NCBI GenBank assembly: GCA_029834535.1
Contig: JAQMWT010000027.1
Coordinates: 1-64,000 of the forward strand
Direction: 5' to 3'
Length of the DNA: 64,000 bases
Source of the DNA: Chrysophaeum taylorii
Lineage: Eukaryota > Sar > Pelagophyceae > Pelagomonadales > Pelagomonadaceae
In this document: piece after piece, positions 15,182-26,534 of the stretch
Numbering within the stretch: position 1 is the stretch's first letter
Layout: every line of letters starts with the position of its first letter
Notes under the pieces: model-generated
Database searches by the model: none
The model's input: only the letters and a program-made list of their open reading frames with translations
Told to the model about the DNA's origin: nothing
Made by a program: the position numbers and the translations under genes

Positions 15182-15482
15182 TGTGGGCGGCAACGCCTGA
15201 CCGCTAAGGCATACCCCCCTTCTCAAGGCTTGATACCCGTTCAACGGAACGCCTTTCCTTACTTTCCTAGTGATGTCATACCTCTCCCTCGAGAGAGGCG
15301 TATCTTGCTATCATAAATCGACTCTCCATCCTCAAGTTGAGAGGCTTGGTGAGCGTGAGCAAGTGGTGTGGCGAGCATAACCGACCCAGAGTCCGTGTTG
15401 GCCTCGTTCAGTGAGGTCTAGGGCGAGTCGGTGAGTACCCCCTTTGTCACCCTAGGGTCGGGAGTGTTTTTCTGTGCCGCCA
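15182..15482 (+). repeat. 5' LTR of Ty3/gypsy copy B
   Basis: This 301-bp segment begins TGTGGGCGGCAAC and ends TGTGCCGCCA. It matches the 3' LTR of copy A and the stub of its own 3' LTR. Three bases further on, TGGTGGAGGCTACGAG begins with TGG and is a candidate primer-binding site, complementary to a tRNA 3' end ending in CCA; I cannot name the tRNA. Confidence 0.85.
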
Positions 15483-15858
15483 TACGTGGTGGAGGCTACG
15501 AGATTGTGCGACTATATCGGTCGCCAACGAACGAGTGCCCCGTACGCACTGTATTGCGCGGTCCGAGTTTACGCGCGCGCCCTGATCACGCACGCCGAGT
15601 TCCAGCGGGCCGAATTGCGTTGAAGTGTATACGCGGATTTTGCTTCGTTCGAACGTCCCGAGAGACGACGAACACGCGCGCGAGTTGGAAATCGGAGCGC
15701 ATACACTCGGGATTTTGATATAGCTGAACGGCGGAAGCTGTTGGCGAGTGGGATCGCAACCCGCACGGCATTTTGGATTGCCAGGCGGACAAGAACTCCG
15801 CGAGTGCTGTTTTGACTGCGACGGATCACGTCATTGTTAACGAGGTGCATCGCTTCGA

Positions 15859-18060
15859 GTGATCGAATCCGGACTTGGTTCGAGATTCCTCATCGACAGT
15901 ATGGAAGAAGACGCAGACGTGCGTGAGGAAGGATCTCCTCCAGTGCTTCCCGCCGCCACTGAGACCGGCCGCGAGGAAGGTGAATTACGAGAGGCCGAGG
16001 CAGTCGACGCAACGGAAATGCCTCCTGTAGAAGTGCCTTCAGAGACAGCATTTTTTTCGCTGATGAGTCCAACGACCCCGGACCGTGGCGAGCGCACTAC
16101 TATTGAGCGCGGATCCGCGACTCGACGTCAGCTTCGCGAAGACCTCGAGCGGAGACGACGCGAAAACGAGCGGCTAGCAGAGCGATTCGCCCGTGAAAGG
16201 GCTGAAGCTCGGGAGGAAGCAGCTCGACAAGAACTTATTGCGCTAAATGAAGCGCTGCGGCAAGAGCTCGAGACAACGAGGACCTTACGTGAAGAGGCTG
16301 ATCTATTTCGTCGTGAGCGATTCGAATTAGCAGCAGAACGAGTTGCGCGACGTGAGAGCAGCCGTGAACCACCCATGAGTCGGCCCGAACCGGAAACACC
16401 CGCGAGGCGAACCGGAAAGGAGCACTAAAACAGGGGATGAACCTCCGCCCCGAGTCGAAACGGAGACTGAAGGTAGGGCGGAACCCGACGATGAAGGTGC
16501 GAAGTTATTACGGGGATTATCGCAGACATCTGCGGACGCTTTCGAGAAGGCCAGCTTGGGCCGATCTCGTCGCCCCACTTCCGGTTTGAAGGCTGACAAC
16601 TTCAAACTCGTCATCGAAGGTCGAGATCAACGACAATTTTGATTCGGATTCGGCAGCGGTGATGCGCACCTTGGCTGAAGACAATTACTCGGTCGAGAAG
16701 CTACGTTATTAATTGCCCGTGCATTTACGTGACACGGTTGCACCGATTTTCGAGGAGCATTTGAAAAAATATGAGAAGCTCTGCGACGAGCTGCCGCACG
16801 GTCCGTCATTTTATTTGAAATTGGATGCGGACGACGAAGAGCATGGGGCCGCGATTCGGCGCCTCCGTCGTCTGAACAAAACCTATTGTGATAGGGTTTT
16901 GGATTATTTTAGATCGACTTGCCGACCTCCGAGCACGCAGCAGGAGCTGCTCGATAAGCTGCGGAAGGTCACTCAGGCTTCAGTTCCGAAGAAGAGTGGA
17001 GAAAGGCACGTGCAGACCTACTGCACCAAGTTCCAGAATGAGGCGTTATCCTTTTTGCACCGAATCCAGCCGCACGATGGACGACGTTGATATTATCGAC
17101 CAGCTTATTAGCGGTTTGGCGTCCAAGGACTTACGGACTCGTGTGCGGACTATGCGGAGCGGCCACCCGGATAGCTATTTGACTTTCACGTCGACGGTGG
17201 CCCTCATTACGAGACTCGAGAACGAATTTCGGAAGTTGATGGAGGAGGAAAAGGACCAAGGGACCAATCCGAACGCAAATAAACCGCCGCGAGGGCGGGG
17301 AGGTCGAGCTATGGCCTCCGATCAACATCGCAAACAAGATGCGGACGAGCCGTCAGGAATTACGGTTCCGCTGATCTTACGAGATCCGTTTTGGTGGTGC
17401 AAGAAGACCTGCAAGGAGTGCGGATTCTTCTGGTCCACGCATGATGAAGATGAACACGGAAGTCGCGTGGTTTGCAACCGAGAGCCGGATCGATACCATA
17501 GATGTGGAAGCGCTTTCGGAAACAGAAGAAGCAATCCATATCGCGGTCCGATTGGGAGAAGCGCGACGATGCATCTAATGCGCACGCTACGCGCGGATCG
17601 GAACCCACTACCGAGATTCAAACGGCGCTCACCGAGCTTGGAACCACGATGGCGACCATGGTGAGCGAAGTCAGAAGTATTAAAGACTGCAAGTCGTCGT
17701 CTACACGACAGCGAAACGGACGGTCACCTTCTAGACGATCGTCGCGCCGACGCCGAAGTAAGAGCCGTGATCAGAAGGTCAACAGCGCAACACCCAGTCC
17801 GAGCCCCCACCGTCGCCTCAATAGCCGGAGTTCCAGTCGCAATTCGCGCCGGCGCAGACGACGTCGGCCGCGCGATGACGAATATGACGGAGGCCGATAC
17901 CAGGACAGTTCGGGTCATTCGAGCGCAACTTTCGCGTTCCAATCTCTATGCGAAGCGCAGCCATCGTCGGGAGTTGTCTTTTACCCGACGGCGCGCCCCG
18001 CCCGAGTCTCCGATGACGTTGCCGATGCCGCCGCGACGAGCAGCCATCGCTTGTAACAGG
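15859..18060 (+). pseudogene. gag-like region of copy B (fossil)
   Basis: The first part is acidic, then a long Glu/Arg-rich coiled coil (about 16120-16380). A capsid-like stretch lies at about 16690-17250. A short Cys/His cluster (CKKTCKECGFF with His residues after it, about 17395-17455) sits where a nucleic-acid-binding knuckle would be expected, though the spacing is not a standard CCHC. An Arg/Ser-rich tail (about 17700-17880) ends the region. Position after the 5' LTR and before the protease-like region is the main support. It is broken. Confidence 0.6.
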
Positions 18061-18679
18061 AGCACGCTACCACCGACGCTCGGATCGTTCGGTGGCCTTC
18101 TACATCGTATGTGGAAGCAATATCAGATGAAGCTTTGGATTCTCCACGCTACTGGGAAGACGCAGACTCGGAGACCGACGAACCAGCGCTGCAGGTTCCA
18201 GTGTCCCCCAATTCGTTAATGTGTGCGTCTTGCAGGGAAGTTCACGACGACGACGTCTGACCCTTTGAGTCGACGTCGGCGACGACGTCTTCTTTTCCTG
18301 CGCCCCCCCCCCGAAACGGTTTTAGCCGATACAGTTTTGGTCGCAGCAGAGCAGACCACAGCGGCGCCGATGGAAGAAAAGTAGACAGGAATGCCCGATT
18401 TGATGGACGAGATTGCGAGAATCGTCCGAGGAAACGAAGGAGGAAGTATATATGCCTCCGATTGAGAAGTGTCAAAACTTGTTGCCAGCAAAACTTGGGA
18501 ATGAGGAAGCAGCAGAGGCGCCGAGCCCATCCGAGGTCGCGATGGAAAAAGAGAGAGAGCCACCAGACAAAGAGAGCGCGGCGAATGGCAATATAGATTC
18601 AGAGGCGAGACGCGGGACGCCCGAGATGGCAGCGGTGACGATGCAGATGTCGGGCGACGCGAATCCGGAGGGACGATGC

Positions 18680-19130
18680 CATCATGTTGCACTTTCGCCG
18701 CGCGACGGGGAAAAGATCGAGCAAGACCTCATCACCATCGGTTGTCTGGACCACCCTGGCACACTTACGTTCATAGTTGGACATATTTACAGACGAAGAG
18801 ACGGGCCGAAGTTCGCAACAACTTTAGGCGTTGAGGGCGTGGCTGATGTCTCCTATATTTGTCGTGTGATGGTCGACAAACTGGCGAAGGATAATATAAT
18901 CCTCGTCCAAGGTGATCTCCCAGTCGAGCGCACCCTGTACGGGTCAGGATTGAATAAGACGACTATCCGCAAATGGGTCGCATTACGAATTGCGGACGAC
19001 GTGGCAGTCCCAGTGGTTGCCATCGTGGCCGATACTAGTCACCTATTTCTGCTGGGAGCGCGCGATATTCGGGTGTTGGGAGCCATAGTGGACTACCCGC
19101 GAAATCGCATTGCGTTTCTCCGCACACAAG
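18680..19130 (+). pseudogene. Retropepsin-like region of copy B (fossil)
   Basis: The stretch has the layout of a retroviral-type aspartic protease: a strand-rich beginning, a core followed by TTIRKWVAL, and a closing LLGARDIRVLGAIVDY that resembles the ILG-x-D block of retropepsins. The call depends on this layout and on its position between gag and pol. About 300 residues with no assignment, including Ser/Glu-rich segments, separate it from the methyltransferase-like domain. Confidence 0.5.
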
Positions 19131-19984
19131 TCGCTTATGGGCGCAAGAAGATAAATGTGCAGGATCGACGAGTCGATTCTCCGATTTTGACGTTCAGAAC
19201 AACTTATGATGAGCGCAACCCCGTGGTAGTTCAGGTATGTGGGCAACAGCACCATGCGATGCAGAAGAGCCTGAGCACAGTTGAGCACCGAGTCTACGCT
19301 CGCTTGTGCAAGATTGAAGACCTCCAGCGTCCACCGCCGAAACGAGCGGGAGCTTCGACGACTTGGGGAGTCCCTCCAGTTACGCCTTCTCGAAGTTCGA
19401 ACAGCGATGCCTATGAAGTGATAGCCGATGCTGCGCGCACGATGAAGGTCGAGCCTGGGCGCACCTACTGCGTGCCAGTCGCTCTTTCAGAGCCCGTGGA
19501 AACCGGGCAAGTTTTTGTTGCTACGTCCTCTGGGTACGAGCAACTCGGGGTAGTCGATGGAGTGTGTTCTTCTCCTGAGGATCATGATAAGTTCGCAGCT
19601 CGAGTGGCGATATCCTTTACCCAGGATGTGCCGACCGTGATTACTCAAGGTGAAATTCTCGCTTTGGGAGATATTGTTTGTTTTGATGGCGAGCTGAATG
19701 TTGAAACTGTCGACGATTTAACGAAGGATGGTGAAGCCGAATCTGACAAGGCTAGCCTATCGTTCACCGTTCCGGTTGCAAGCCATCTGACTCAAGGCGA
19801 TGCGGCTCCCGAACCGATGCTTTTGAGCTCGGCGCAGAAGGCGTCTCCTTCTGCCGATAAGGATAAGAATTCTCGTCAAGAATCGCTCGGTAACGACGCT
19901 TTCGACCGACGAACCGACGAGGAGGAAAAGAAGTGCCGAGAAGTTACAGAAGGCGAGATTCGCCGAAGGTTTGAAAAAGTCCAC

Positions 19985-20860
19985 TGGGTGCCGATCGCGT
20001 ATCGCAAGGTTGTGATGCTCTTTAGCGGCGCCGGGGGCAGTACTTTAGGACTGCAACGAGCGAATGAGTTGTGCGGGACGTCGTTTCGAGTCGTCCTTGC
20101 TCTTGGCTCTTCAAAAGCTGCCAACAAGATTCATCAGAAGAATTTTCCGAAGATACACGTGGTTCAGCACACGCTCTGCGGACGATATGACACGACCCTC
20201 CGATTGATCAAGGCTTATTTGCCTGAAGCGGAATGGTCATCGTCGATGTGTATCGCGTCTCCACCCTGCGTTCATTCAGCACTCTGCAACTTGACATCCA
20301 GAGATGTGGGCAGGGGAGTTACGGCCACTACTTGGACGACGAAGCTGTGCAAAATGGCTGGCTTCATGATGTGGCTGATCGAACAGGAGGCGTCCATTAT
20401 TTCTTATATAGCGCGCTTACACCCTTACGTGTACGTCGTCAATTTTCATAATATCACGCCCACTTTAATGAGCTCTCGCGTGCTATTGTTGGTTTCCAGT
20501 ACCCACTGCACCTGCAAGAGGCTCCGAAGACATGTGCGAATATGCAACAGAAATTTGCTGCAGCTTTAGGGTACGCTGATGAACGTCACCTGCTCCAGCT
20601 GAATATCTAGGCTCGTCCCGAGAAGCAACAGATACGGCTTACACCGTTACGCGAGTTCCTCTTCGCTTGGGACCGCACCGCTCGGGCACTCAGCCTTTGA
20701 CTCTCGAGATGACGGCCGAGTTGCTCACGATGCCGCTGGACCATGATTGGGCTGGCTTGTCTAAGACAGACTCGTTCAAGCACTTAGCGTCTGTTGTCCC
20801 TCCAGACACTCTTGCTATTTTAGCAGCGATTGCACAACTCCGTGACCGAAGGTTTCCGCC
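19985..20860 (+). pseudogene. DNA (cytosine-5) methyltransferase-like domain carried by copy B (fossil)
   Basis: Four family blocks appear in the expected order. Motif I is VMLFSGAGGSTLGLQRAN (the FxGxGG S-adenosylmethionine site). The motif II-III region is VLALGSSKAANKIHQKNFP. Motif IV is CIASPPCVHSAL, with the catalytic Pro-Cys. The motif IX-X region is LTLEMTAELLTMPLDHDW followed by SFKHLASVVPPDTLAILAAI, which corresponds to the end of the family fold. The part in between, including the target-recognition stretch, is poorly readable. In the family these enzymes methylate carbon 5 of cytosine in DNA. Sitting inside pol upstream of RT, it would have travelled with the element. Cytosine methyltransferases in retrotransposons are known from dinoflagellates and a charophyte alga. 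Confidence 0.75.
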
Positions 20861-21479
20861 AAAGTGGCGAAGTCCTGCCGACCGCGTTGAGCCCGACAGA
20901 TCGATCCTCTGAGCAGTATTTGCGTCACGTACAGATTCCGCTGTTAAATACGCGTACTCGTGTCGTTAAGTGGGTGTCAAAAGATGATCTCCAGGATCCC
21001 ACCAAATGGGAACCGCCAGAAGTCCCTATGCTTCCGCTTCCAACAGATGCGCCGGGGACGGCTCATGCTTTTTCTGCTGAGCCCCCCCGACAATCAAAAG
21101 TGGACGTTCCGCCGGATCCTGAACCTGAACAGGAGCCGAAAGTAAGGAGCGAGCCGAATGTGCGCGTCAAAGGTGAAAAGATCAATAAGAGCCACCCTGA
21201 GGTGAGGTTCAAATACGAAGAAAAGTTCGATGTGCCATGGAAGGATGCGCCGCGCGACGCGGACGGTGCACCGTTACCGCAGACTCCGGAGCACGTCAAG
21301 GACAATGAGGCGATGAAAGTCGCAACTCCGACGAAGGAAGAAGTCGAGAAGGTTGTTCGAGAACTGGGAATTCCCGACAAGCCGCATCTGGATGAGGATG
21401 CGAAGATGATGTTGAGCCACTGCGTGCAATACGCGTGGGCCTTTTTTGATCCGATTATGAGACCCGTGGACTCGCCACC

Positions 21480-22145
21480 GGTTTCTCTACGATTTAAAGA
21501 CGCAAACCCACGACCGATCAAGATGACGCCTTAAAGGTTGACGCCAGCAAAGCTCGAGTGTCTCAGAAAGCAGATCACCGAGTGGTGTCGCGATGGAGTC
21601 ATCCGACCGGCGAACTCTCCGTGGGGATTCCCTGTACTGATGCTGCCTAAGAAGGGAGCAGAGGCCGGGACGTCGAATGCTTTTCGTGCTGCAGTTGACT
21701 TGCGTCAGCTCAATGATCAGCTGGTCAATGACAGTTGGCCGAATATTCGTCAAGATGATGCCTTGGCTTTTCTTGCCATGCGCCGTTGGCGGACGTGCAA
21801 TGATATTCGATGGGGTTATCATAACCTATGTTTGGACGCCGCCGCTCAGGACGTCGTTACGATGGTTAGTCCACTTGGAGCCCATAGGTTCTTGCGCTTG
21901 CCTCTGGGAGTGAAAATAGCAGGAGCTCTCTTTTGTAAACAGATGGCTAGCGATTTGTCCACATGGATGTATAAGGACTTGGTCGCGTTTGTCGACGATA
22001 TTATGATGGGATCGGATGAACTCCACCGTCATTTACAAGTCTTGATTGAAGTGCTGTGCCATTTAGCGCAGCGAGGATATAGTGGACGAACTTCGAAGTT
22101 CCACCTCCTCCAAGATGAAATCGAGTTTCTGGGACACATTTCGAC
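21480..22145 (+). pseudogene. Reverse transcriptase region of copy B (fossil)
   Basis: The RT palm is recognisable from GVIRPANSPWGFPVLMLPKK through AAVDLRQLND and FLRLPLGVKIAGALFCKQM to LVAFVDDIMMGS, the catalytic F-x-DD block, and EIEFLGHI. This is the standard order for Ty3/gypsy RT. A SINE-like element lies directly after it, and the RT thumb and RNase H continue on the other side. Confidence 0.85.
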
Positions 22146-22397
22146 GGGCCGGTTGGCAGCCGGAACGTTCGCAGGGACGGGGTATGGCCGGGGGGCGAAG
22201 ACGGAAGGTTATCGACGAGTTGGTTGTCAGTCACATCGCGGTCTCCTCGTCGCATGGCGACAAGCTCGATGGTCACTCTCCGCCGACCGACCTTTCGGCG
22301 CTCCTCGTCTACAGGCCCGTGATTCCGGACTGGCTCCTGTCGGTCCGGCCTGGCTCCCATGCTCGGGAGAGGTCTGAAGTTAGTTAGTTAGTTAGTT
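22146..22397 (+). mobile_element. SINE-like element, copy 2, nested in copy B
   Basis: The 252-bp insertion is bounded by a perfect 8-bp target-site duplication, ATTTCGAC, at 22138-22145 and 22398-22405. It starts GGGCCGGTTGG and ends in a (GTTA)n tail. It matches the element at 7220-7468. Target duplication plus a simple-repeat tail is the mark of LINE-driven retroposition. It carries a CTCCC/GGGAG hairpin just before the tail. It is non-coding as far as I can see. Confidence 0.85.
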
Positions 22398-22405
22398 ATT
22401 TCGAC

Positions 22406-23070
22406 TCCGGAAGGCTTGAAGCCGAATCCCAAGACGTTAGAAGCGTTGCAGCAGATGCAAATTCCCGATACGTTGCCGAACACGTCCCCGAAGACCCAGA
22501 TTCGATCTTTCATCGGCACGAGCAACTATTGCCGCCGATATGTGAAGAATTATTCGAAGATTGTGGAGCCGCCGAGGCGATTGTGTTAAGTTTGAGTGGA
22601 CGCCTGAGTGCCAAAAGGCGTGGAACACGATCATCAAAGCTTTGGTGAGCTCTCGCGGAGTTTATGATCCTGACTACGATCTTCCTTTTCAGATCCGCTC
22701 GGATGCTTCCAAGGATGGTCTGGGCGCTATCCTTTTCAGCTCGTGGAAGTCAAGGACGAAACCGGCAAGGTGACACGAGAGGAACGAGTAATTGAGTATT
22801 GGAGCCGAGCTGTGCCGAAAGAGATGCGGAACTATGAGCCTCGCCGGCTAGAGCTACTGGCAGTTATTCTTTCTCTTGAGCATTTCCGCTCTCATATCGA
22901 ACGTCACACCTGGCAGTTATTCTTTCTCTTGAGCATTTCCGCTCTCATATCGAAGGTCACAAGACGATCCTTGAAACGGATCATCGCAACTTGACGTTTT
23001 TACGAAAGGCGAAGCACTCGTTTGGGCAGTTGGCTCGATGGGCGATGCGGCTCGCCAACTTCGATCCTTA
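22406..23070 (+). pseudogene. RT thumb and RNase H region of copy B (fossil)
   Basis: After the SINE, LKPNPKTLEALQ-like thumb sequence is followed by the RNase H start IRSDASKDGLGAILF (about 22695-22740), then EYWSRAVPKEMRNYEP and LELLAVILSLEHFR. These are the expected blocks of the gypsy RNase H. It leads straight into the part shared with copy A. Confidence 0.75.
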
Positions 23071-23071
23071 A

Positions 23072-25428
23072 TTGGGTTACAAACCAGGAAAGTCGTCGGG
23101 AATGAGTATCCCTGACTGTCTCTCTCGCAATCCTATAGATCATGTCATCGAGACGGATGAGTTTGGTGAACCCTTGAACCACGCGTATCTAGTGTGCCAA
23201 GAACTTCCTCGCCCTGTCGATGATGAAGGAGTACCTTTACCAGGGTGCCATGTCATTCTGTCGTTTGTTACGACTGAGTTGCCTGTGGAGGAAGAGGACC
23301 TCGATGATCTGATGCAATTGGTCACGTCTAACGCTACGAGACAACGTCAGAAGCAACGTCTGCAGACCCAACCTAGTATTTTCCGTGATGCCGATGATTA
23401 CCAAGAGTACATCGACAAGATTCCGGGTAATTTGACATTGGTAGAGATAGCCAAAGAGCAGATCACTGATGCTACTTGCGAGGACATTCGTTATCGCATG
23501 GCTCAGGGCCATTCTCTTCGTCGGTACGGAGCCAATTATCGCTATCAAGTGGTGAAAGGAGTACTCTACCGTGCCGCACCTGACTTGCACCCGATGATAG
23601 TCGCACCCCGAACTTTTCGGACGCGCATCATCCGATTGTACCATGACACGCCTCTCAATGGTGGTCACATGGGTCGTCAAAGTACCGTGGAGTCGATACT
23701 TGAACGTTTTTGGTGGCCCCACATGTCTAATGAGGTGGGTGCTTACATTGGTGGTTGCATAGTGTGCAAGAAAGCTCGTACGCCTGAACCAAAGAGAGCA
23801 GGTCTTCTTCAGCAACCGGTGTATGATGGTGATTGCGCCGTCCCTTGTATGGGTTTGTTCGGACCTTTGCCCAGTGCTGGTCCCGAGACATATCTGATGA
23901 TCTTTTTTGATCCATTTTCTCATTTCTTGATTCTTGACGTACTGCACCATAAGACTGCTGAGTCGATCCTCGAGTCTTTTGTCGCGAATATATTACTCAA
24001 AGGCTATCTACCTCAGAGGATTCGTACTGACAACGGGAAAGAGTTCGTCAATAAATTGATGGGAGAGTTTTGTCATCTCTTCAATGTTCGGTATAGTACC
24101 ACGATTCCGCATCATGCTCAGGCTAATCCTGCGGAAAGGGTCAACCGCTTTATCAAGGCTTTCCTCCGTGCATGTCTTCAAGACCGCAAGATCACGGACT
24201 GGCCCGAGTTCGCGGAGTACATTGCTTTCTGCTACATTCGTAAGTTCATTCCGGGGACTCAGATCTCACCCTCCGTGCTTCGTCTCAATCGGCAGCCTCT
24301 ATTGCCGACAGATTATACGATCATGGATCTTGATGTCCGCCGCCTGCCGAAAACTCGCTCCGATGTTGTGGCAGAGACTCGCGAGAGGTTTAAATTCAAC
24401 ACCGCTACGGTGAATGAAGCTCTTCTTTCGCCAATCGGACCGTTTGCTATCTGGGATCCGAAAGACAGCGAACTTACCGTGCTTGAAATCATCTCGGAAG
24501 GTCTCCTTGGGTTTGGGCACGGCTCGATCGACCACTGGAGAAACCATCACGGGGGTGATCTGACTGACATGAACACAACGGCATTCAGGAGGAGAATCAA
24601 GAGACTCAATCCTGTAAGTGACTGGAGTTTTTCCACAATAACGAATGGACCGCGCCATTCCGATCGAAGCTTCTTCTGAAGAAAAGGGATGTAGAACAGA
24701 ACATGTGAACCTTCTTCATACTCCACATCGACATGGTCCGCATTGTAAGCAAGACGTTGTTTACGAAGAGCCTTCTCGCGATTTATTCGAAATTTATGTG
24801 GCTGAAGTTTATGAGCCCTATGATTTTGTGAATGATCGAGTCGCTCTGCATTTTTATGCCGATCTCGGTCCTCATGACAAGGTTTCTTACTACTACCCTA
24901 CCTCACATCTCTCTACTCGCAAGCTTAACTAACTAACTAACTAACTAACTTCAGACCTCTCCCGAGCATGGGAGCCAGGCCGGACCGGCAGGAGCCGGTA
25001 CGGAATCACAGAGGAAAATCACGCAGTTGGGGCAGGGCGACGGACGAGGACGGACTTGTTGATGGTGGACCGCTACTGCGCGCGGTCTTGTGCGAGGTCG
25101 TGCAAAAGCGTCGCAGGCCGCGGGCGTGTTGCTCCACGAACAATCGACCTGTCCGTCGCGTTCTGCCCAACCGAGCGAACCCCATCACAAGCTTAGGCCG
25201 GAATACAAGGACGTGGACGGTCGCAGTTTCACCGACAAGTCCAAGGTCAACAACAGTACCACTCCTTGTGACACCGACTTCGCTCCGCATGAGATCGATG
25301 TGCTGATTCCTAAGTTCACTTTGCGTAGTGGACGCGCCCCCGAGCCTGTCGTCGAACGCGTCTACAAGAAGATTCGTTCCCGAGATGCTCATTCAGCCAA
25401 GGCTCGTGATTCTCGTCGAGCTCGCTGA
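23072..25428 (+). pseudogene. Integrase region and C-terminal tail of copy B (fossil)
   Basis: The integrase zinc-binding domain (H-x-H, then CIVCKKARTP) lies at about 23640-23790 and the catalytic core at about 23840-24200, with FGPLPSAGPETYLMIF, RIRTDNGKEFVNKL and PHHAQANPAERVNRF. After the core comes a long tail related to that of copy A (for example FTLRSGRAPEPVVERV near 25315-25365). The second SINE-like element is inserted in this tail. Confidence 0.8.
24928..25188 (-). mobile_element. SINE-like element of a second subfamily, nested in copy B
   Basis: This 261-bp insertion is flanked by a perfect 7-bp duplication, AAGCTTA, at 24921-24927 and 25189-25195. Read on the minus strand it ends in GGCTCCCATGCTCGGGAG, GGTCTGAAG and a (TTAG)n tail, as in the other SINE-like copies, but its first ~190 bp are unrelated to theirs. 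So two families share a ~70-bp 3' module. Confidence 0.85.
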
Positions 25429-25458
25429 GGGCAGCTCGTATTCTCACCATGGGAGTCC

Positions 25459-25497
25459 TGTGGGCGGCAACTCCTGACCGTTAAGGTTTCCCCCCCC
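25459..25497 (+). repeat. Truncated 3' LTR stub of copy B
   Basis: TGTGGGCGGCAAC and the next bases match the start of the LTR at 15182. Similarity is lost in a run of C at about 25490, directly before the gene-rich region. Confidence 0.75.
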
Positions 25498-25559: not shown

Positions 25560-26359
25560 ATGTTTGGCGGGGCGCGGGTGATGATGATGCGCGGCGCGCG
25601 TTTGGTTGGGAAGCGTCGGTTCATCGCGGTGCCTCAGGGCGAGGCGGCGAGCGTGATCGGGGGTCTCATCGGGGGGAACGTGGCAGTGTACGCCCTCTGG
25701 CAGACGCAGTCGCCGCGTGTGATGACGGCGCACTTCACGGTGTCGACGGAGGACGTGGTGCGCAAACCGTACACGCTCGTGAGTGCGATGTTTTCTCACC
25801 AGAACGGCTACCATCTGCTGGGGAATATGATGACACTTTTTTTCTTTGGACCCGAGGTCATCTATGCCATCGGCGCGCGCCAGTTTCTCGCGCTTTATTT
25901 TGGCGCCGGATGCGTTGCGGGGACCTCCCAGCTCGCCGTGTCGGCGGCGACGACCCGCGACTGGTATTGGGCGCGCGAGCGCTTTCTCGGCGCCTCTGGC
26001 GCGGTGAACGCCGCGGTAGCTTGGAGCGTGCTGTACAGTCCGTGGCGCCTCATCATCGTCTTCGCCGAATTCCTCCCGCTTCCGCTCCCCGCCATTCTGT
26101 ACGGCGCGGTATACGTTGGCAAAGATGTGAGTCTCGTGTGTGGTTGTGCGCGTTCGCTCCCCCTTTACCGCTACTACTACTACTACTACTACCTACGACT
26201 TCTACGTAGGCGGCGTCGCTCCTGGGAATCCGCATCCCGTACTTGGCCGAGCGGCCGCAGAGCATTGCGCACGGCGCCCACCTCGCGGGGGCGGCGTGTG
26301 GCGCGGCCCACTTTTTTTTCTTCCGCCGCCGCCCCCCCCCTAGTCGCTTCTTTCGCTAA
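25560..26359 (+). CDS. Rhomboid-family intramembrane serine protease (two exons)
   Basis: Exons 25560-26126 and 26210-26359 join across an 83-nt intron (GTGAGT...TACGTAG) to give 238 residues. The rhomboid set is complete: the H-x4-H-x3-N motif in HQNGYHLLGNM (residues 80-90), the nucleophile Ser146 in GASG, and the catalytic His213 in AHLAG within the last membrane segment. Without splicing, the second exon, and with it the catalytic His, would be lost, which supports the intron. The N-terminus is Met/Arg-rich without acids for the first 27 residues, suggesting a mitochondrial or plastid targeting peptide, so it may be an organellar rhomboid. A CTA microsatellite lies in the intron. The end in polyproline is unusual and the 3' end sits in homopolymer C, where a sequencing error would shift the last few codons. 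Confidence 0.85.
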
Positions 26360-26534
26360 GTCTCGGGCGGTCCCGACGACGAGGGCTTGTTTGTTTGGAA
26401 CAAATACAAGTAATGAATCTTCTTCTCCGAAAGTGTGGAAATAAATAAATTTCACACTTGTGGTGGTGGTGGTGGTGGTGGCAAAAAAATAGATCAGTTA
26501 TTTCGGTCGGAAGAAGCGCGCGCGCGCGCGCTCG
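26360..26534. repeat. Microsatellites between rhomboid and OSCA genes
   Basis: This short spacer holds (GGT)n at about 26459-26481 and a (GC)n run at about 26517-26531, plus AAATAAATAAAT. It must hold the OSCA promoter. Confidence 0.6.

Follow-up and report, generated by a model that had tools for sequence, protein, structure and literature searches.

The window analysed here, the first 64,000 nucleotides of a contig of the pelagophyte Chrysophaeum taylorii (JAQMWT010000027.1), contains a Ty3/gypsy element in which the initial annotation had recognized the motifs of a cytosine-5 DNA methyltransferase ahead of the reverse transcriptase. This raises the question of whether an LTR retrotransposon of this alga has captured such an enzyme and kept it, and what the enzyme might do for the element. 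The features on which the following analysis draws are listed here.

15182..25497, plus strand: decayed Ty3/gypsy LTR element, the broken copy in the window
15182..15484, plus strand: 5′ LTR, first letters TGTGGGCGGC; its start is shared with 25460-25497 (33/38 bp), and its end was set by alignment to a complete copy with identical LTRs on contig C5
15487..15503, plus strand: primer-binding-site-like stretch TGGTGGAGGCTACGAGA directly after the 5′ LTR, from reading of the sequence
15859..18219, plus strand: gag-like region with broken frames, from open reading frames; function assigned from position alone
18413..20569, plus strand: open frame of 718 aa with a protease-like part, a linker and the opening portion of the methyltransferase domain
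20003..20830, plus strand: C5-cytosine methyltransferase-like domain split over three frames, with motifs I, II, IV, VI and VIII and a motif IX-X-like tail
21646..22140, plus strand: reverse transcriptase (RVT_1; Pfam E 1.5e-12)
22145..22392, plus strand: insert of about 250 bp within pol that recurs, inverted and at 98% identity, in the C117 locus (L031)
23606..23782, plus strand: integrase zinc-binding domain (PF17921; E 2.5e-16)
23870..24115, plus strand: integrase core (rve; E 7.5e-9)
25460..25497, plus strand: 3′ LTR, first 38 bp only, the remainder lost

The methyltransferase-like domain lies upstream of the reverse transcriptase at the coordinates first assigned to it, and its identity is borne out by PF00145 and PHROGs matches in open copies of the same family. 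It begins at about 20003 (KVVMLFSGAGGSTLGL), and motifs I to VIII fall inside the open frame, which reads, in order, FSGAGGSTLGL (motif I), a motif II-like stretch, SPPC, LIEQ and SSRV before the stop at 20567-20569; we use the motif names and roles that we take to apply to this class of enzyme. Three-frame translation distributes the remainder over both other forward frames: one carries, up to about 20830, a tail resembling motifs IX-X (LTLEMTAELLTMP, LASVVPPDT), and a piece in between lies in the third. Because the later part continues in these two frames, the domain is broken in the window copy.

Around this domain, the protease-like label is a reading by eye, as no Pfam match to a protease was obtained in the window or open-copy proteins scanned; likewise, the three open reading frames scanned from the gag-like region gave no Pfam family above cut-off. 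At the position equivalent to the primer-binding-site-like stretch, the complete copy on C5 has TGGTGGAGGAATACGAGA. The segment at 24421-24762 aligns to that copy in the orientation opposite to its neighbours, implying an inversion in one of the two copies. An 83-bp inverted repeat with TTAG repeats (95% identity), which looks like a small non-autonomous element, occupies 22319-22401 at the edge of the pol insert and 24927-25009 near the 3′ end, and a host open reading frame that appears rhomboid-like by eye (25560-26444) starts about 60 bp past the cut 3′ LTR. The window copy is probably an old one.

The surmise that the host is an ochrophyte was supported by the genome itself. Among 84 light-harvesting matches, the one compared was closest to fucoxanthin proteins among solved structures (E 2.8e-76), and at three places (C38, C126 and C590) a bZIP domain is followed, after about 170 to 190 bp and on the same strand, by a LOV-like PAS_9 domain, the frames being equally long; a fourth such place, on C356, has a spacing of about 750 bp. 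A bZIP followed by PAS_9 is the build of aureochromes, which excerpts of PMC9416419 and PMC3779222 describe as restricted to Stramenopiles or heterokont algae. Light-harvesting genes also form tandem arrays on contigs C88 and C539, with five rows each.

We then asked how widely the domain is distributed in the genome (70.8 Mb, 697 contigs). The window frame returned 68 rows, the window included and some being pieces of one copy, whose identities to the query delineated subfamilies of roughly 80-93% and 65%. A 200-residue domain query from each of two subfamilies matched all 150 scored candidates both times (of 863 and 870), and comparison by hand of the two overlapping lists yielded at least about 201 distinct places; in one list of 150 rows, 135 were free of stops inside the match by hand count. 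We further compared the best 52 of 150 reverse transcriptase rows with 69 of 150 N-part rows, 18 of 150 C-part rows chosen near a reverse transcriptase and the window itself, a comparison that may miss some matches: a methyltransferase match lay upstream in 39, comprising 27 with the N-part at a distance of 934 to 1,333 bp and 12 with the C-part only, and the remaining 13 had neither part among the matches listed. An earlier pairing, which took in 55 of the 68 rows of the window-frame search, had found a methyltransferase match upstream of 81 of 150 reverse transcriptase rows and none, among the matches listed, for the other 69; conversely, a reverse transcriptase lay downstream of 68 of 150 methyltransferase matches and on the wrong side of none (0/150). 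Given the rows without a listed match, gypsy copies devoid of the domain may exist.

A complete 10.3-kb copy (C5:520043-530330) is bounded by two direct LTRs of 336 bp that are 100% identical, implying recent movement, and has a single open frame for methyltransferase, reverse transcriptase, RNase H and integrase (3,067 aa, of which 2,859 aa were scanned); in L029, the pol order is RVT_1, RT_RNaseH, H2C2 and rve. No target-site duplication was visible by eye within 10 bases on either side of the C5 copy, which recombination between copies could explain. The order of reverse transcriptase, RNase H and integrase in one pol, together with the direct LTRs, identifies the family as Ty3/gypsy. A survey of other copies had been called for at the outset because a methyltransferase gene might have inserted separately into the window copy alone. 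That explanation is refuted by the at least about 200 places in which the domain occurs, the N-part upstream of 27 of the best 52 reverse transcriptase rows and the single open frame shared with the reverse transcriptase in C5; we leave it practically no probability, and regard the domain as family-wide.

The profile evidence for the enzyme class was divided. The isolated domain of L029 exceeds the curated PF00145 cut-off (26.1 against 22 bits; E 7e-6), whereas the window frame, matched over residues 532-587, stays below it (18.3 bits; E 0.0017), as do the longer L029 polyprotein (18.7 bits) and L031 frame (19.1 bits). The check proposed in the initial annotation thus succeeds for an open copy and falls short for the window itself. 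When isolated domains were scanned, 9 of 11 open copies matched PF00145 (E up to 1; best E 4.5e-6), and PHROGs "DNA methyltransferase" families matched two open copies with best E values of 2.1e-7 and 1.4e-6; the TIGR00675 value was 0.0013, far under the cut-off of that model. Every one of these matches covers motifs I-II only (about 55 residues), and residues past motif II alone gave a Pfam match in none of three proteins. So short a match might be a chance likeness to the motif I found in a different Rossmann-fold enzyme, but three libraries (Pfam, NCBIfam and PHROGs) name DNA methyltransferases and no family of another kind, and PPC, Glu and RxR occur further on in that order; we consider chance likeness very improbable.

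The same profile, PF00145, marks at least 57 places in the genome (123 of 474 candidates scored). The best 20 of these comprise two host-type genes and 18 loci whose domains are all related to one another (18/18; L011-L028), to which we return below. Of the host genes, L010 combines a methyltransferase with an SNF2 domain and is DNMT5-like, and L009 we take to be DNMT2-like from its CFT motif, which is presumably typical of DNMT2.

Past motif II, the case is carried by individual residues. In open gypsy copies, motifs I-II are followed in order by the Cys of motif IV, the Glu of motif VI and the Arg of motif VIII. In alignment A1, built from 11 hand-chosen open copies, this Cys, this Glu and both Arg are invariant; motif VIII reads RVR in these 11 copies and RVL in the window copy. 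Distances from motif I to Cys, Cys to Glu and Glu to Arg are 82, 38 and 34 residues, compared with 65, 41 and 43 in the host DNMT2-like gene and 78, 41 and 39 in the host DNMT5-like gene. Motif VI is EQE, EQG or EQV instead of ENV. On the motif I-II profiles and the letters, spacing and conservation of the later motifs, we classify the gypsy domain as a predicted C5-methyltransferase. AlphaFold returned a pLDDT of 34.9 for it, the alignment being too shallow; this failure says little, since the domain of L011-L028, for which the Pfam match is better, fails likewise (pLDDT 32.3, alignment also too shallow). Neither within the polyprotein nor as an alignment did the gypsy domain match an entry of the protein database, which may hold few eukaryotes; alignments of both domains found no relative among viral contigs, and the first 8 kb of the window matched no phage record.

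Selection was then assessed on the domain. Two pairs between subfamilies gave dN of 0.110 and 0.121 against dS of 2.1 and 2.6, which are saturated, and hence dN/dS of 0.053 and 0.046; the ratio was 0.11 and 0.16 for two within-subfamily pairs. For reference, dN/dS was 0.155 in the linker after the domain and 0.022 in the reverse transcriptase, window versus C5. In 60-codon blocks along the window frame compared with C5, identity is 47-75% before residue 494 and then rises to 77, 82 and 90% in the methyltransferase; residues 614-673, which contain motifs IV and VI, have the lowest pN (0.058) of 12 blocks in this frame, the reverse transcriptase lying in a separate frame, and the frame of the window copy breaks within the last block (residues 674-718; 56% identity). 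The capture is therefore old enough for two subfamilies to have reached saturation at silent sites. Together, these results leave us highly confident that a C5-methyltransferase was captured by this Ty3/gypsy family, between the protease-like region and the reverse transcriptase, and has been maintained there under purifying selection. Constraint of this kind could also preserve a catalytically dead domain that serves Gag-Pol structurally or by binding SAM, a view that fits the altered motif VI, variable after its Glu, and the want of any profile match beyond motif II. The invariance of the Cys, Glu and Arg in A1 and the position of the most constrained block of the frame, precisely at motifs IV-VI, argue the other way, and we judge a dead domain unlikely.

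Which methyltransferase the captured enzyme resembles most bears on its substrate. At E values up to 1, the gypsy domain matched four PDB chains, DNMT2 twice and two unrelated proteins; the DNMT2 matches (1g55 and 9hgm) were the best at E 0.11 to 0.14, which is not significant, and spanned motifs I-II only, and no DNMT3 chain appeared at E 1 or better. In shuffle tests, 1 of 500 shuffles reached the score against the host DNMT2-like gene (z 5.2) and 72 of 500 reached that against DNMT5 (z 1.2), and hhalign aligned the domain to host DNMT2 at E 0.0018, though with a probability of only 15%; the corresponding value for the domain of L011-L028 was E 0.13. These comparisons are what a DNMT2-like enzyme methylating the element RNA or its tRNA primer would predict. 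The signal, however, sits in motifs I-II: past motif II, shuffles attain the DNMT2 score in 24 and 46 of 500 cases, and the CFT motif is absent from the 11 copies of A1, so that similarity to DNMT2 is not full-length and the domain does not qualify as a member of that family. The pairwise shuffle test is, moreover, of low power, because the control domain of L011-L028, a clear Pfam match, gives no signal against either the DNMT2-like or the DNMT5-like gene (271 and 240 of 500; z -0.1 and 0.0). An RNA-acting domain consequently appears to us doubtful.

If instead the enzyme acts on DNA, lasting CpG methylation should deplete CpG. The observed/expected CpG ratios of the window element (1.23) and the C5 element (1.30) fall inside the interval spanned by the left and right flanks of the window element (1.11 and 1.32). 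Transitions in the C5 subfamily (9 copies) amount to 0.033 per site at CpG versus 0.055 at other C/G, and in the window subfamily (11 copies) to 0.0157 versus 0.0121 per base. The gypsy copies thus exhibit neither CpG depletion nor a marked excess of CpG transitions, which argues against heavy, lasting CpG self-methylation; the implication, drawn in the initial annotation, that such elements methylate their own copies finds no support in base composition. A missing footprint is expected of an RNA-acting enzyme and agrees equally with a dead domain. Any mark made by the gypsy enzyme is, by base composition, not heavy, lasting CpG methylation.

The 18 loci L011-L028 constitute a Ty1/copia family with another C5-methyltransferase-like domain in the same genome. 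RVT_2, the Ty1/copia reverse transcriptase, and an integrase follow the domain in the two loci scanned through; tblastn over 10-kb stretches placed an integrase downstream on the same strand in 14/18 and a reverse transcriptase in 10/18, with the reverse transcriptase on the other strand in two. The copia domain has PCQ, ENV and the motif VIII Arg, matches TIGR00675 (1.1e-8) and PHROGs (3.5e-9), and finds its best PDB chains, weakly, among HhaI-type enzymes (E 0.009); inside its polyprotein it had no match in the protein database, which may hold few eukaryotes. Its dN/dS ranges from 0.10 to 0.21 in 10 in-frame pairs, the 5 of 15 pairs with L011 being left out as off frame; the reverse transcriptase comparison of L025 with L026, off frame too, was likewise set aside. 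In both families the domain stands ahead of the first pol enzyme, the reverse transcriptase in gypsy and the integrase in copia. Five copia loci (L012, L020, L022, L025 and L026) have CpG ratios of 0.98 to 1.06, against 1.1 to 1.4 in the other stretches measured, with 1.31 and 1.43 at the two host-gene loci; the low copia values may be a weak methylation footprint confined to that family, although base composition also differs.

No support was obtained for a shared origin of the gypsy and copia enzymes: hhalign aligned non-matching parts (E 0.038) and shuffles gave z of 0.0 to 1.0, so that no similarity between the two domains was detectable by either method, both of which are weak pairwise tests. 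This suggests, within the power of such tests, separate captures. One could go further and propose that two LTR superfamilies in one ochrophyte genome took up different C5-methyltransferases at the corresponding place before the first pol enzyme, and that both were selected; given the gypsy family without a CpG footprint, methylation there would then serve particle- or RNA-stage steps, such as protecting the cDNA or methylating the primer or the RNA, rather than lasting silencing. Because the pairwise tests are weak and the CpG ratio is lower in copia loci, we advance this proposal as a speculative one that is probably not correct in full.

For the gypsy family, the account that we favour as a whole, and consider reasonably probable, comprises capture, upkeep and a DNA-methylating role of the element's own enzyme. 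The enzyme would most likely be made as part of Gag-Pol and carried into the particle together with the reverse transcriptase and integrase, where it would methylate cytosines of the element's new cDNA, or of the DNA flanking a new insertion, and so favour the element. Methylation of the cDNA is the tentative part of this scheme, and we rate its chances as somewhat short of even.

Published cases, as far as excerpts of the papers cited here extend, match the belief that such elements were known only from dinoflagellates and a charophyte: C5-methyltransferase-bearing retrotransposons are described from dinoflagellates and Klebsormidium (PMC5890265). The placement inside pol, singled out in the initial annotation as notable, has precedents in the same source, where KnitGypsy-Dnmt3 and SymbioDIRS-Dnmt3 both carry the enzyme in Pol. 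KnitGypsy-Dnmt3 of Klebsormidium nitens resembles the algal gypsy family in its Gypsy domain set, the C5-methyltransferase in Pol, intronless copies and purifying selection; it differs in its Dnmt3-related enzyme, the algal domain having no DNMT3 chain among its PDB matches at E up to 1, in its DIRS-like arrangement of repeats, the C5 copy having ordinary direct LTRs, and in its host lineage (PMC5890265). SymbioLINE-Dnmt and SymbioDIRS-Dnmt3 of Symbiodinium are likewise high-copy retrotransposons with a C5-methyltransferase, but with LINE and DIRS machinery, whereas the algal family is of LTR type with a DDE integrase; the SymbioLINE enzymes form an orphan lineage, as the algal gypsy enzyme may, and their elements are CpG-depleted, unlike the algal gypsy family, while SymbioDIRS-Dnmt3 shares with it the absence of CpG depletion (PMC5890265).

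Citing work of 2018, PMC12344493 lists, for streptophytes and dinoflagellates, Copia and DIRS elements among the Dnmt3 members. Its LTR Copia with DNMT3 parallels the algal copia family in joining Copia to a C5-methyltransferase and differs in being of Dnmt3 type, the algal copia domain being nearest, weakly, to HhaI-type chains. The ParB-methyltransferase gene of Sola1-1 in Ectocarpus is also a methyltransferase in a transposon of an ochrophyte, but of a DNA transposon and with 4mC or 6mA, not 5mC, as the predicted product (PMC12477816). In the portions of the open-licence literature covered, including PMC9998398 and PMC9033089, we found no C5-methyltransferase in an ochrophyte retrotransposon. 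An earlier notice of an ochrophyte case is possible, as the excerpt of PMC6338049 lists Stramenopiles among the hosts of Dam- or Dcm-bearing Ty3/gypsy and DIRS elements, pooled and with no named Dcm case.

Collectively, the alga most likely represents a third host lineage for methyltransferase-carrying retrotransposons, with the activity of the enzyme predicted from sequence. If this is true, ochrophytes would join dinoflagellates and charophytes as hosts of cytosine-methyltransferase retrotransposons; a single genome would contribute two LTR superfamilies, one of them, gypsy, without the CpG footprint expected from self-methylation, and methylation sequencing of one alga would put the role of such enzymes for the element to a direct test.
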